Assembly: GCF_022808865.1 (NCBI RefSeq)
Contig: NZ_JAKZLB010000001.1
Coordinates: forward strand, 124,001-188,000
Origin: Geothrix oryzisoli
GTDB lineage: Bacteria > Acidobacteriota > Holophagae > Holophagales > Holophagaceae
Direction: 5' to 3'
DNA: 64,000 nt
Shown one piece after another: positions 40,711 through 45,877 of the stretch (within the stretch, counting starts at the first letter, position 1; each line of letters starts with the position of its first letter). The notes under the pieces were generated by a model that was not told the origin of the DNA, made no database searches, and was given only the letters and a program-made list of their open reading frames with translations. Position numbers and translations under genes: made by a program.

Positions 40711-40842
40711 ATGAAAGAACAATTGCCCGAGGGCCTTGAATTCACCGCCGCCAGGACGGACATTCCCGTTCCGGCCGCCGCGCTGCCCGCCCCGCCCCAG
40801 GAGGATGGGGCGGACCCTGACCAGTACCTCTGGGGAGTCTGA
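40711..40842 (+). CDS. 43-residue small ORF between leuA and leuB
   Basis: A small reading frame with a good ribosome binding site (GAGGTGAT) four bases before ATG 40711, filling the gap between leuA (stop 40706) and leuB (start 40845). The predicted 43-residue peptide is acidic and Pro/Ala-rich, starts [11 protein letters not shown] and ends DQYLWGV. I know no family. Spacing of 4 bp and 2 bp to its neighbours fits a coupled translation unit. Confidence 0.55.
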
Positions 40843-40844
40843 TC

Positions 40845-41981
40845 GTGGAAGCCCGCATCACCCTTCTTCCCGGCGACGGCGTGGGCCCCGAAGTGGTCCA
40901 CGAGGCCGCCGCCTGCCTCACCGCCGTGGCCAAGGCCTATGGCCACCGGTTCCACCTGGAGGAGGCCCTCATCGGCGGAGCCGCTGTGGATGCCACGGGC
41001 GATCCGTTCCCGGCGGAGACCCTCGCCAAGTGCCAGGCCAGCCGGGCCGTCCTGCTGGGAGCGGTGGGTGGACCCGCCTGGGACCGCCACCCCCGGGACC
41101 AGCGTCCGGAGTCCGGTCTGTTGCGCCTGCGGCGGGCCCTCGGGCTCTATGCGAACCTCCGTCCCGTCAAGGTCCATCCGGCCCTGGAGGATGCCTCCCC
41201 GCTCCGTCCGGAGGTGGTCCGCGGCACGGACCTGATGATCGTCCGGGAGCTGGGCGGTGGCCTCTACTTCGGCGAGCCCCGGTCCTTCTCCGACGAGCGG
41301 GCCGTGAACACGCTGCCCTACACCCGCAGCGAGATCGAGCAGGTCGCCCAGGTGGGCTTCGAGCTGGCCGCCGCCCGCCGGGGCCGCCTGGTCTCCGTGG
41401 ACAAGGCCAACGTGCTGGAGACCTCCCGCCTCTGGCGCCAGGTGGTCGACGAACTGGCCCCGGCCTATCCCACGGTGAAGGTCACCCACGCCTACGTGGA
41501 CAGCTTCGCCATGGCCCTGATCACGCGCCCCCGGGACTTCGACGTGGTGCTGACGGAGAACCTCTTCGGGGACATCCTCAGCGACGAGGCCGCCGTGCTG
41601 GCGGGCTCGCTGGGGCTGCTGCCCTCCGCCAGCCTGGGGGGTCCCGTGGGCCTCTACGAGCCCATCCATGGATCCGCCCCGGATCTTGCCGGGAAGGATG
41701 TCGCCAACCCGATCGGAACAATCCTTTCCGCCGCCATGCTGCTTCGCCACAGCCTCCGGCTCGAGGCCGAGGCCCTGGCCCTTGAAGCCGCCGTGGACCG
41801 CGTGCTCAAGGGCGGCCATGGCACCTCGGATCTCGGGGGCCTCAAGCACCAGCACGGCACCCGGGCCCTCGGCGAGCGGATCCGCGACGCCATCCGCCCT
41901 CCCCGTGCCAAGGGGGCCCGGCTGGCCGATTCCGCGTATTCGTGGTGCGGTTCGCCCGAAGGCGCCCGCTCCCACCTCTGA
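40845..41981 (+). CDS. leuB: 3-isopropylmalate dehydrogenase
   Basis: Oxidatively decarboxylates 3-isopropylmalate with NAD+. The 378-residue protein has [13 protein letters not shown] near 5-17, the substrate Arg cluster ([12 protein letters not shown] near 98-109, [10 protein letters not shown] near 131-140), the catalytic Lys in SVDKANVLE, the metal-site Asps in [12 protein letters not shown] and the NAD-binding [17 protein letters not shown] motif. GTG start at 40845. The tail after residue 355 is longer than usual and ends without known motif. Confidence 0.96.
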
Positions 41982-42019: not shown

Positions 42020-42124
42020 ATGCCCCGCACCGCCACCCCCGCCGACGCGATCCCCGCCTTCGAGGTCGGGTTCCCCGTCGTGATTACCGGCCTGCCCGGG
42101 CTGGTGCTGTGGCTGGCGGGCTAG
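42020..42124 (+). CDS. leader peptide 1 of the ilv attenuator region
   Basis: A 34-codon frame starting at ATG 42020, 38 bp after leuB. Ten of 34 residues are branched-chain: Ile 11 and 22, Val 16, 20, 21 and 29, Leu 25, 28, 30 and 32, concentrated in PVVITGLPGLVLWLAG at the C-terminus. It ends 27 bp before terminator 1. This is the classical form of a leader peptide that senses charged branched-chain tRNAs by ribosome stalling; the ORF and codons are seen, the function is inferred. Confidence 0.6.
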   Translation: MPRTATPADAIPAFEVGFPVVITGLPGLVLWLAG

Positions 42125-42180
42125 GGGAGGGGAGGACACCACACGGACCCCGGCCCCGCACCCCACCAGGCGGGGCCTTT
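42116..42180 (+). terminator. attenuator terminator 1
   Basis: GGCCCCGC (42152-42159) and GCGGGGCC (42170-42177) form an 8-bp stem followed by TTT (42178-42180). An alternative pairing of 42116-42127, at the end of leader peptide 1, with 42148-42159 (nine pairs and an internal loop) would compete with it as an antiterminator. Confidence 0.6.
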
Positions 42181-42249
42181 CTACATCGGCACCCCCCTTT
42201 CCGCACCCTCCCGAGGAACCCCATGACCCGAGCAGAACGGACTCCAGCC

Positions 42250-42278
42250 TTGACTTTTCCCAGACCTCCCCGGAGACT
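42250..42278 (+). promoter_or_regulatory. possible internal promoter between the two attenuators
   Basis: TTGACT (42250-42255) is a five of six -35 match; GAGACT 17 bp later is a weak -10 (three of six). A start near 42285 would place the transcript start at leader peptide 2. Weak evidence. Confidence 0.25.
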
Positions 42279-42286
42279 CGTCCCCC

Positions 42287-42412
42287 ATGAGCCTCTCCTC
42301 CCACAGCCAGCAGACAGCCCCGGCGGTTTCGCCGCTGTCTGTGCGCCCCGTGGCAGGCCTGGTGGCCATTCCCGCCGTGCTGATGATTAGCGGCGAGGTG
42401 GGGGCCTCCTAA
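42287..42412 (+). CDS. leader peptide 2 of the ilvBNC attenuator
   Basis: A 41-codon frame from ATG 42287 to TAA 42410-42412. Twelve residues are branched-chain (Val 14, 19, 22, 26, 31, 38; Leu 3, 17, 25, 32; Ile 28, 34), clustered in GLVAIPAVLMI near the C-terminus. The last codons (GEVGAS) lie in the strand that can pair with terminator 2. Ribosome stalling at the Val/Leu/Ile codons would free this strand. Confidence 0.65.
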   Translation: MSLSSHSQQTAPAVSPLSVRPVAGLVAIPAVLMISGEVGAS

Positions 42413-42468
42413 AAGTTCTCGGAACCAACCGAAACCGGCCCCGCACCTCGAACGATGCGGGGCCTTTT
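42394..42468 (+). terminator. attenuator terminator 2 with antiterminator, directly upstream of ilvB
   Basis: GGCCCCGCA (42437-42445) and TGCGGGGCC (42456-42464) form a 9-bp stem followed by TTTT (42465-42468). The end of leader peptide 2, 42394-42406, can instead pair with 42437-42450 by 13 base pairs with one bulged G, which excludes the terminator. This mutually exclusive pair is the hallmark of transcription attenuation. Confidence 0.75.
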
Positions 42469-42518
42469 CACATCGGTCCTGCCATCCCGAGGTCGGCGGC
42501 CTTCCCAGAAGGAAGACC

Positions 42519-44249
42519 ATGACCAAGTCCGCGACGCACACCGGGGCCCAGCTCATCTGGGAATGTCTGACGCGGGAGGGCGTCACCACCGTCTTCGGCT
42601 ATCCCGGCGGAGCCATCCTCCCCGCCTACGACGCCATGGTGGGCTTCGACATCCGGCATGTGCTGGTGCGCCACGAGCAGAGCGCCGTGCACATGGCCGA
42701 CGGCTACGCCCGCGCCTCGGGCCGCGTGGGGGTCGTGGTGGCCACCTCGGGCCCCGGGGCCACGAACCTGGTGACGGGCCTGGCCACGGCCATGATGGAC
42801 TCCACGCCCCTGGTGGCCATCACGGGGCAGGTGGGCTCCGGTGTGCTGGGCACCGACGCCTTCCAGGAAGTGGACATCACCGGCATCACCCTCCCGGTGA
42901 CCAAGCACAACTACCTGGTCACCCGGGCCGCGGACATCGTGCCCGCCCTGCGGGAGGCCTTCGCGGTGGCGAAGAGCGGCCGTCCCGGTCCCGTGCTGGT
43001 GGACATCACCAAGGACGCCCAGCAGGGCCGGGCGGACCTCGACTGGGAAGCGGCGGAGCCCATCCGGCACCTGCGCCACCTGCCGCCGCCACTGGATCCC
43101 GAGGCCCTGGCCCGCGCCCTGGAGCTGATCCGCCACGCCAAGCGGCCGCTCATCCTGGCGGGCCATGGCATCCAGCTGTCCGGCGCCCGGGCCGAGGTGC
43201 TCACCCTGGCCGAGCGGGCGGACATTCCCTTCGCCCTGACCCTCCTGGGCCTGGGCGCGGTGCCCGCCACCCATCCCCTCAGTCTCGGCATGATGGGGAT
43301 GCACGGCGAGGCCTGGGTCAACAAGGCCATCCAGGAGGCGGACCTCCTGCTGGCCCTGGGCATGCGCTTCGACGATCGCGTGACCGGCAAGCTGAAGGAG
43401 TACGCCCCCCACGCCAAGAAGATCCACATCGACATCGACGCCAGCGAGCTGGGGAAGAACGTGCCCGTGGACGTGGCCATCGCCGGGGACCTGCTCACGG
43501 TCCTGCGCGCCCTGCTGCCGGGTGTCCAGGTGGCCGATCGCTCCAAGTGGCTGAAGCAGATCCGGGGCTGGCGCGGCGACTCCGCCGTCCGCGACATCAA
43601 GAACCTGCCCGACGACGGCCACCTCTACGCCGCCCATGTGATGCACGACCTCTGGCGGCTCACCGACGGCAAGGCGGTGGTGGTGACGGACGTGGGCCAG
43701 CACCAGATGTGGGAGGCCCAGTACTACCACCACGATGCGGAGCGCAGCCTCATCACCAGCGGCGGCGCGGGCACCATGGGCTTCGCCCTCCCGGCCGCCA
43801 TCGGCGCGAAAGTGGCCAGGCCCGAGGCCGAGGTCTGGGTGGTGGCCGGCGACGGCGGCTTCCAGATGACCTTCGCCGAGCTGATGACGGCCGTGCAGGA
43901 AGGCGTGAAGGTGAACATCGCCGTCATCAACAACGGCTTCCTCGGCATGGTCCGCCAGTGGCAGGAGCTGTTCTACGAGGGCCGCTACGCCGCCACGCCC
44001 ATCCTGTCGCCGGACTTCGTGAAGCTGGCCGGTGCCTTCGGCATCCATGGCCAGCGCGTGGATACCCGTGCGGACCTGGCGGGAGCCGTGGGCGCTGCCC
44101 GGGGAGAGCAGGGCACCGCCCTCATCGAGTTCCGGGTGGAGCAGGAGGACAGTGTCTATCCCATGGTCCCGGCCGGGGCGGCGCTGCACGAGATGATCCG
44201 ACGCCCGTCCGCCAGCGCCATTGCCGAAACCGGGTCCGACCCTGTCTGA
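42519..44249 (+). CDS. ilvB: acetolactate synthase, large (catalytic) subunit
   Basis: Makes 2-acetolactate or 2-aceto-2-hydroxybutyrate from pyruvate, the first common step of valine and isoleucine synthesis. The 576-residue TPP/FAD enzyme has the catalytic Glu53 in RHEQSAVHMADGYARASG, the GQVGSGVLGTDAFQEVDI block near 108-125, FAD-domain RFDDRVTGK near 287 and the TPP motif GDGGFQMTFAEL near 446 followed by NNGFLGMVRQWQ. AAGGAAG precedes the ATG. First structural gene after the two attenuators. Confidence 0.97.
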   Translation: MTKSATHTGAQLIWECLTREGVTTVFGYPGGAILPAYDAMVGFDIRHVLVRHEQSAVHMADGYARASGRVGVVVATSGPGATNLVTGLATAMMDSTPLVAITGQVGSGVLGTDAFQEVDITGITLPVTKHNYLVTRAADIVPALREAFAVAKSGRPGPVLVDITKDAQQGRADLDWEAAEPIRHLRHLPPPLDPEALARALELIRHAKRPLILAGHGIQLSGARAEVLTLAERADIPFALTLLGLGAVPATHPLSLGMMGMHGEAWVNKAIQEADLLLALGMRFDDRVTGKLKEYAPHAKKIHIDIDASELGKNVPVDVAIAGDLLTVLRALLPGVQVADRSKWLKQIRGWRGDSAVRDIKNLPDDGHLYAAHVMHDLWRLTDGKAVVVTDVGQHQMWEAQYYHHDAERSLITSGGAGTMGFALPAAIGAKVARPEAEVWVVAGDGGFQMTFAELMTAVQEGVKVNIAVINNGFLGMVRQWQELFYEGRYAATPILSPDFVKLAGAFGIHGQRVDTRADLAGAVGAARGEQGTALIEFRVEQEDSVYPMVPAGAALHEMIRRPSASAIAETGSDPV

Positions 44250-44259
44250 AAGGAATTCC

Positions 44260-44802
44260 ATGCCCCATGTGCTCGTGGTCTATACCGATGATGAACCAGG
44301 CGTCCTGACCCGGGTGGCTTCGCTGTTCCGCCGCCGGGGCTTCAACATCCACTCGCTTACCGTGGGCCCCACCGAGCGTTCCCGGCAGTCCCGCATGACC
44401 ATCGTGGTGGATGCGGAGGAAAGCACCGTGCGGCTGGCGGTGGAACACCTCCGGAAACAGGTGAACGTCCTGGAAGTGCAGCAGCTGGGCGACCGCCCGA
44501 AAGTGGTGCGGGACCTGGCCCTCATCCGGGTGGCGGCGGGACTGGAGGTCCGCTCCGAGATCCTCCAGCTGGCCCAGGTCTTCCGCGCCAACGTGGTGGA
44601 TATCGCCGGGGACAGCCTCGCCATCGAGTGCACCGGCGGCCCCGACAAGATCGATGCCCTGGTGGATGCGCTGCGTCCCTTCGGGATCCTCGAGCTGGGC
44701 CGCACCGGGGCCGTCGCCATGGCCCGGGGGCCCAGGGCCTCACCGGAGGTCCGCCCCGAACGGGTTCCCGAACCGGCCAGCAACCAGGCCATGTCCGTCT
44801 GA
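44260..44802 (+). CDS. ilvN: acetolactate synthase, small (regulatory) subunit
   Basis: Regulatory partner of IlvB giving feedback inhibition, usually by valine. The 180-residue protein has an N-terminal ACT domain ([35 protein letters not shown]) to about residue 75 and the C-terminal ALS_ss domain ([16 protein letters not shown] to about 160), with a short Pro/Glu tail. GAAAGGAA lies before ATG 44260. Ten base pairs from ilvB. Confidence 0.96.
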
Positions 44803-44854
44803 TCTCCGACTTTCCCGACCCACCGACTTCCGACCACCCCACAAGGAGCCTCCC
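44803..44854. other. ilvN-ilvC spacer of repeated CCGACTT-like words
   Basis: The 52-bp spacer is built of near-repeats such as CCGACTT, CCCGACCC, CCGACTTCCGACC. It ends with AAGGAG, the ribosome binding site of ilvC. Confidence 0.45.
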
Positions 44855-45877
44855 ATGGCCAAGATCCACTACGACGCCGACCTCGGCCTCATCCGCGCCC
44901 GCAAGGTCGCCATCCTGGGCTACGGCTCCCAGGGCCACGCCCACGCGCTCAACCTGAAGGACAGCGGCGTCCACGTCCGCGTGGGCCTGCCCGCCAGTTC
45001 GGCCTCCCAGGCGAAGGCCGAAGCCCAGGGCCTCACCGTCATGACGCCCGCCGAGGCCGCCGCCTGGGCGGACGTGATCATGGTGCTCACGCCGGACACG
45101 GGCCAGGCGGCCCTCTACCACGAGGCCATCGAGCCGCACCTGACGCCGGGCAAGACCCTGATGTTCGCCCACGGCTTCAACATCCGGTACGGCCTCATCA
45201 AGCCTCCCGCGGGCGTGGACGTGAGCCTGGTCGCGCCCAAGAGCCCCGGCCACCGCGTCCGCGAGGTCTTCGTGGAAGGCGGCGGCACGCCGGCCCTGGT
45301 GGCCGTCCACCAGGACGCGAGCGGGCAGGCCCAGGCCGTGGCCCTGTCCTATGCGGCAGCCCTTGGCCTGACCCGGGCAGGTGTCCTGGAAACGACCTTT
45401 ACGGAAGAAACCGAAACCGATCTCTTCGGCGAGAAGGCCGTGCTGTGCGGCGGCACCAGCGCCCTGGTGAAGGCTGGCTTCGAGACACTGGTGGAAGCGG
45501 GCTACCAGCCCGAGATCGCCTACTTCGAGTGCCTGCACGAACTCAAGCTCATCGTGGACCTGATGCAGCGGGGCGGCCTCAGCTACATGCGCTACAGCAT
45601 CAGCGACACGGCGGAGTACGGCGACTACACCGGCGGCCCCCGCATCGTGACCAGTCAGACCAAGGCCGAGATGAAGGAGATCCTGAAGGAGATCCAGGAC
45701 GGCCGCTACGCCGACGCGTGGCTCGAGGAGAACCGCACGGGCCGCAAGTGGTTCGAGGCCCAGCGGGCCGCCGATCACGACCACCCCCTCGAGCAGGTGG
45801 GCCGCGAGCTGCGGCGCATGATGCCCTTCCTCGATCCCGTGGAGGCCCCGGCGCCGGCCCCGACGGAGCGCGGCTAG
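44855..45877 (+). CDS. ilvC: ketol-acid reductoisomerase (NADP+), class I
   Basis: Isomerises and reduces acetolactate to dihydroxyisovalerate. The 340-residue length is class I. The NADPH-binding loop is [18 protein letters not shown] (21-38); the C-terminal knotted domain has [25 protein letters not shown], with the magnesium-binding Asp and Glu, near 185-209 and the [15 protein letters not shown] block near 225-239. AAGGAG precedes the ATG. Last gene of leuA-leuB-ilvBNC. Confidence 0.97.

Follow-up and report, generated by a model that had tools for sequence, protein, structure and literature searches.

Attenuators of Proteobacterial leu and ilv genes, such as E. coli leuL, ilvL and the ilvBN leader, lie upstream of branched-chain amino acid genes and couple a Leu/Val/Ile leader peptide to an antiterminator that competes with a terminator. 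Leaders with Ile, Val and Leu codons also precede ilvB in Actinobacteria (PMC11857589; PMC1262725), where control-codon changes at Streptomyces coelicolor ilvB were without effect (PMC1262725). Attenuators in tandem are known from Salmonella mgtCBR, termed a singular example of the arrangement for different signals (PMC3641672). Among the attenuators predicted in Acidobacteria, almost none had an assigned function in 2010 (PMC2965389), and searches of the literature on leader peptides of Acidobacteriota or Geothrix yielded no description of such elements. The phylum is unstudied with respect to ribosome-mediated attenuation. Here, we analyze two attenuator-like units that stand in series between leucine and isoleucine/valine biosynthetic genes of Geothrix oryzisoli, within a 64,000-nucleotide stretch of genomic DNA (the window).

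Results

The minus strand of the window carries leuD (presumed from position alone), leuC and a LysR regulator gene. On the plus strand, leuA and leuB are followed by two short ORFs with hairpins, then by ilvB, ilvN and ilvC. Both ORFs fit in the gap between leuB and ilvB, and each is succeeded by a GGCCCCGC…GCGGGGCC hairpin. The gap between leuA and leuB is itself filled by a 43-codon ORF (40712-40843). Features of the locus are as follows.

40845..41981, plus strand: leuB (TIGR00169), gene upstream of unit 1 and predicted source of read-through transcripts
42020..42124, plus strand: leader ORF 1, 34 codons, MPRTATPADAIPAFEVGFPVVITGLPGLVLWLAG then stop; begins 38 nt past the leuB stop, has no promoter of its own; most congeners keep the ATG, the stop and a length of 34-36 codons
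42077..42115, plus strand: probable leader 1 control codons, V20 V21 I22 (ATT) ... L25 ... L28 V29 L30. L32, from codon usage and codon positions
42113..42132, plus strand: 5' arm of antiterminator 1, CUGG.GGG...GGGG..GGG, spanning the final Leu codon and the UAG stop, from folding
42148..42169, plus strand: 3' arm of antiterminator 1, equal to the 5' arm plus loop of terminator 1, from folding
42152-42177 (42152..42181 with U tract), plus strand: terminator-like hairpin 1, GGCCCCGC/GCGGGGCC, -17.6 kcal/mol, then a short U tract, TTTCT, from sequence and folding
42250..42278, plus strand: putative unit 2 promoter, TTGACT-17-GAGACT, ending 8 nt 5' of the leader 2 ATG, which would leave the transcript near-leaderless; conserved in 10/10 unit 2 species
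42287..42412, plus strand: leader ORF 2, 41 codons, ending in VAGLVAIPAVLMISGEVGAS then stop; rich in ATT Ile codons across 10 leaders
42394..42406, plus strand: 5' arm of antiterminator 2, CGAGGUGGGGGCC, coding for the conserved GEVGA end of leader 2, from folding
42437-42450, plus strand: 3' arm of antiterminator 2, within hairpin 2, from folding
42437-42464 (42437..42468 with U tract), plus strand: terminator-like hairpin 2, -19.6 kcal/mol, then a U tract, TTTT, from sequence and folding
42519..44249, plus strand: ilvB (TIGR00118), the predicted controlled gene
44221-44802 (frame), plus strand: ilvN (TIGR00119), 3' of ilvB
44654-45877, plus strand: ilvC (PRK05479), 3' of ilvB and ilvN

An earlier note on this DNA had recognized two attenuator-type units with similar cores, an observation that pairwise alignment bore out. 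Unit 1 aligned with unit 2 at a score of 51, far beyond the 1000 dinucleotide-preserving shuffles used as the null (mean 18.9, maximum 38, 0/1000 as high), and the core, starting at the stop codon, accounted for all of this signal (score 51 by itself, 0/1000 as high). Leader ORFs alone did not align (score 17 versus 17.6 for shuffled sequence, with 602/1000 shuffles scoring at least as high). Similarity of the two units is therefore confined to the RNA cores and does not extend to the leaders. The terminator words said to be shared are present in both units, as is ACATCGG after each terminator, at 42183-42189 and 42470-42476, one base from where it had been placed. Additional letters common to both units outside the pairing constraint are the TCGGAACCA-CCGA inner hairpin (seen in L069 unit 1 and unit 2) and TTTYACATC past the hairpin. 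The units differ in the position of the stop codon relative to the antiterminator arm.

Genome-wide searches extended this likeness. A sequence-only model built from unit 1 sequences of 20 species, with no unit 2 included, matched unit 2 at E=9.7e-7 when the entire genome containing the window was searched; the next other place scored 0.016. The same model found unit 2, second only to unit 1, in every searched genome having unit 2 (E 1e-7 to 1e-6). The unit 2 model in turn matched unit 1 at 3.2e-4 in the window's genome (next, 0.55) and at 3.3e-6 in G003. Hairpins of the GGCCCCGC..GCGGGGCC type number 8 genome-wide, with long ACC loops confined to hairpins 1 and 2. Collectively, the hairpin count, the cross-detecting models and the shuffles exclude chance resemblance of GC-rich terminators.

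Each unit opens with a short leader ORF carrying pathway amino acid codons at fixed places. Leaders had been described as rich in branched-chain amino acids, and they are: they reach 8 Ile, Leu or Val within 16 residues, a density attained by 0.45% of windows in neighbouring proteins. Codon choice is also distinctive. ATT is a rare Ile codon in eight neighbouring genes (3/151) and makes up 29/31 Ile codons in the ten leaders of unit 2, where codons -8, -9 and -14 (counted from the end) account for most of them. In unit 1 leaders ATT was found at codons -13 to -15 (14/14), with the other 37 Ile codons being ATC. Leu is invariant at codons -3 and -5 in 19/19 unit 1 leaders, and at codons -10 and -17 in 10/10 unit 2 leaders. 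The probable signals differ, being Leu at -3/-5 for unit 1 and Val-Leu-Ile with the rare ATT for unit 2. The Shine-Dalgarno sequence of leader 1 is weak.

Computed folds of every unit place a G-rich arm at the leader end in a pairing with the terminator GGCCCC, enclosing a small hairpin of the form UCGG..CCGA or an altered version of it, e.g., UCGAA..UUCGA in L073. In unit 1 this pairing begins at the G of the UAG stop and that first base is paired in nearly all folds, a starting point that comes from folds begun at that G and not from an unbiased search. Folding of wider segments gave longer antiterminators that reach into the leader in both unit types. The antiterminator of unit 2 is a 13-bp helix of CGAGGUGGGGGCC with GGCCCC-G-CACCUCG (-31.8 versus -19.6 kcal/mol for the terminator), and a long helix of this kind appeared in all unit 2 species folded. 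For unit 1 of the window, the extended arm gave -27.4 and the core alone -16.1, versus -17.6 kcal/mol for the terminator. A core antiterminator could be folded in 35/35 distinct units (mean z -2.5, p<0.05 in 29/35). The unit 1 core of the window was the weakest of these by z-score (z -0.9), with the extended arm not counted.

The pairing is maintained through sequence change. Cognate combinations of unit 1 arm and terminator loop paired better than between-species swaps (p=0.0001; 16 distinct pairs, kinship ignored), with GGUUG/CAACC in L086 an example of co-variation. Species carrying both units keep the antiterminator through changes in both arms (GGGGCGGGGA/UCCCGGCCCC), and members of another genus (G056, G057) keep the unit 2 antiterminator with altered bases, GGU..GGGGA with UCCCC..ACC in G057. 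For the core helices a per-pair covariation test came out flat, there being almost no variation in the columns of the arms. The unit 2 antiterminator helix accounts for the conservation of GEVGA at the terminus of leader 2.

The front of a ribosome extends about 12 bases ahead of its A site. Thus, stalls at Leu, Val or Ile codons would leave all or most of the antiterminator arm unoccupied, whereas a ribosome at the stop codon would cover it. Computed pairings of antiterminator and terminator are mutually exclusive, and the antiterminator is one that a ribosome at the stop codon would block. The three-segment arrangement of E. coli was not seen, as the sequence upstream of the arm formed no hairpin that was stable or conserved; a 1:2 pause hairpin, GGCCC-RTG-GGCC, suspected before the Leu codons, was unsupported by folding. 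A search of the window against Rfam returned no match, be it to a T-box, a riboswitch or another Rfam leader.

The promoter pattern of unit 2 was found in 10/10 species as TTGAC(T/A), 17 bases, a -10-like ...ACT and 8 bases to the ATG; a generic promoter scan did not report it. Transcription from this motif would start at or next to the leader ATG. No such motif lies upstream of leader 1 in any species checked, and 16-53 bases separate the leuB stop from the leader 1 ATG across species. Where unit 1 occurs alone, the ~45-50 nt between hairpin 1 and ilvD lack the unit 2 promoter motif, and the ilv genes of these species thus appear dependent on read-through of hairpin 1. Given a promoter motif at unit 2 and none at unit 1, unit 1 would gate only leuA/leuB read-through and unit 2 would gate all transcripts. 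Two complete attenuators do stand between one promoter and one gene set, with unit 2 also having its own promoter motif. The stepwise or AND-type control previously suggested would be restricted to read-through, as the unit 2 promoter would bypass unit 1; the units would make up a layered gate rather than equal locks.

The earlier note had asked whether relatives have one unit or two; tandem units occur in 7 species, a single unit in 24 and none in 3. Among 36 congeners with a leuB match, both units are present in the window's genome, G001, G002, G003, G005, G009 and G046. Unit 1 alone is found in 21 (with a leader ORF in 14; in the other 7 the stop of leuB takes the place of the leader stop), unit 2 alone in 3 (G006, G015, G030) and neither in 3 (G035, G039, G042); 2 have leuB placed elsewhere. 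On a protein tree, the tandem species form one clade, interrupted only by G004, a nested species that has lost both unit 2 and ilvD; species with unit 2 only form a separate clade among unit 1 species. Outside the genus, unit 2-type leaders and a promoter-like TTGAC precede ilvD in G053, G054, G056 and G057, and G052 has a unit 2-like core without the promoter. Leaders of the other genus end in IISGEVGAP (G056) and IISGEVGDP (G057) directly before the stop, and G053 and G054 have their own versions. Two leaders of that genus (L196, L197) contain Val runs and ATT Ile codons, and share the peptide end of unit 2 at ~68% IlvD identity.

Finding IISGEVGAP leaders in another genus makes unit 2 look ancestral and duplication plausible. 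Most simply, unit 2 would be the ancestral form and unit 1 a duplicate of it dating back to the genus ancestor or earlier, with several lines subsequently losing one copy or the other. Duplication of one ancestral unit, as originally proposed, is thus plausible from the occurrence of unit 2 alone in other clades and genera and of unit 1 alone in many species, but not proven. Joint horizontal transfer of unit 2 and ilvD was considered and rejected: ilvD bodies of the tandem clade are no closer to those of unit 2-only species, the likeness stopping with the intergenic part.

Several variants of the locus were seen. In the leuB-stop form (L079, L081, L082, L087-L090), there is no leader ORF and the antiterminator arm abuts the stop codon of leuB; most LeuB proteins of this form have Leu-Pro just before their end. 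The last codons of LeuB itself may act as the sensor in these species. The gene next after unit 2 in close relatives, ilvD, is absent from the window (42466-42519) and from G004. The sole IlvD-like protein of the window's genome is a distant one of 617 aa encoded elsewhere (L159, G000:C1:262232), which suggests loss and replacement of ilvD. G004 (L068), without unit 2 and ilvD, has a 21-codon ORF (MSRSDQLPSPCGAADDLTRTQ then stop) between hairpin 1 and ilvB, and similar short ORFs come after hairpin 1 in other species without ilvD at that place.

Discussion

From the parts and their conservation, the distribution of one and two units, the codon positions, the unit 2 promoter motif and the exclusive computed pairings, we infer that the locus is subject to transcription, termination, translation of leader 1 and a response to aminoacyl-tRNA. 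Both units are probably (about 0.72) ribosome-mediated transcription attenuators in series, unit 1 promoterless and intercistronic and unit 2 a related unit with its own promoter. A ribosome finishing the leader would cover the 5' arm of the antiterminator, allowing the GGCCCCGC...GCGGGGCC terminator to form. A ribosome stalled upstream at Leu, Val or Ile codons would leave the arm free to pair with GGCCCC(GCACC), and polymerase would proceed to ilvBNC. Unit 1 would decide whether polymerase from the leuA-leuB promoter goes on into the ilv genes, and unit 2 would control this leu read-through plus the transcripts from its own promoter. In the predicted net logic, an open unit 2 is needed by every transcript, whether it starts at the unit 2 promoter or comes from the leu promoter through an open unit 1. 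Unit 1 would in this way add a leucine-linked supply of ilv transcript to a basal route under Ile/Val/Leu control at unit 2.

Hairpin 1 might instead be the plain terminator of a leuAB operon and ORF 1 incidental, with unit 2 and its promoter the only regulator of ilvBNC. The conserved unit 2 promoter motif would fit, as ilv expression in the tandem clade needs no read-through, and so would the weak core antiterminator of unit 1 in the window, the weakest observed. A codon-position test of leader selection likewise found no third-position excess among leader 1 substitutions. We nonetheless judge a plain terminator improbable: unit 1 is the sole element in 21 congeners, with no unit 2-type promoter before ilv; Leu codons at -3/-5 are invariant; and arm and loop co-vary, with the antiterminator of the tandem clade kept via changes in both arms. 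Both hairpins are strong by fold. Their U tracts are short (TTTCT, TTTT) and a generic promoter/terminator scan called neither of them on the plus strand, which could point to Rho-dependent termination, or to control mainly on ilvB translation, in place of an intrinsic terminator. That either operates here is very unlikely, since a hairpin with U tract is kept in the units and is stronger in thrA (GGGGCTTTTT), and the ilvB start, some 50 nt away from terminator 2, is not masked by it.

A further alternative concerns origin only and is compatible with an attenuation mechanism, namely that the units are not duplicates and arose separately or by convergence under a design common to the lineage. 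Genus-wide, thrA (aspartokinase/homoserine dehydrogenase) is preceded by an attenuator of the same design with Thr/Ile leaders (L162-L191; in the window's own genome L190, G000:C2 about 445,100). Its parts are a TTGAC promoter, a near-leaderless leader, a GGGGC arm at the stop, a small CTGA..TCAG hairpin and a GCCCCGCG terminator. This kind of attenuator is thus lineage-wide, and part of the design shared by units 1 and 2 would be so too. The failure of the leader ORFs to align, the constraint that paired arms place on sequence and the differing stop position relative to the arm also favour separate origins. However, letters shared by the two units outside the pairing constraint (TCGGAACCA-CCGA and TTTYACATC) speak for common descent, as do scores that set leu and ilv units nearer each other than thr units, and we regard separate origins as a real but unlikely possibility.

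If the two units are indeed related attenuators in series, a more specific picture can be offered, to which we give somewhat less than even odds. Duplication of one attenuator would have created a gate with two promoters and two sensors. The promoterless copy, placed where the leucine genes end, would sense leucine and meter read-through into the shared isoleucine/valine genes, with an antiterminator that spans the copy's own stop codon; the end of leuB would be the leader in some relatives. There, translation of a biosynthetic enzyme would have a direct metering effect on transcription of the pathway genes that follow. More broadly, the locus would illustrate how a small RNA switch, once duplicated, can split one signal in two and link two neighbouring biosynthetic gene sets. 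With one unit, the other, both, none, or a leader replaced by leuB, the genus offers natural variants for tracing the gain, loss and logic of attenuators.

Among known systems, Proteobacterial leu and ilv attenuators resemble the Geothrix units in leader codons, in the opposition of antiterminator and terminator and in position before branched-chain amino acid genes. The Geothrix units differ in that no 1:2 pause hairpin was found, the antiterminator arm adjoins or spans the stop codon, unit 1 is intercistronic and Rfam gives no match. The Corynebacterium glutamicum ilvBNC leader likewise has Ile, Val and Leu codons before ilvB and overlapping terminator and antiterminator, but actinobacterial ilvB leaders are single units for which an anti-antiterminator has been described (PMC11857589; PMC1262725). 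Sinorhizobium trpL offers a parallel to the near-leaderless leader 2 in an mRNA that starts at the leader ATG; it is a single attenuator responding to tryptophan and its start site is known, whereas that of leader 2 is predicted (PMC7298713). Salmonella mgtCBR shares the layout of two short ORFs and two attenuators for different signals, although there a single leader holds both ORFs and responds to ATP and proline (PMC3641672). By comparison, the Geothrix locus has an internal promoter motif at unit 2, a unit 1 placed between two biosynthetic gene sets, leaders that are both rich in branched-chain amino acids, and cores that are alike.
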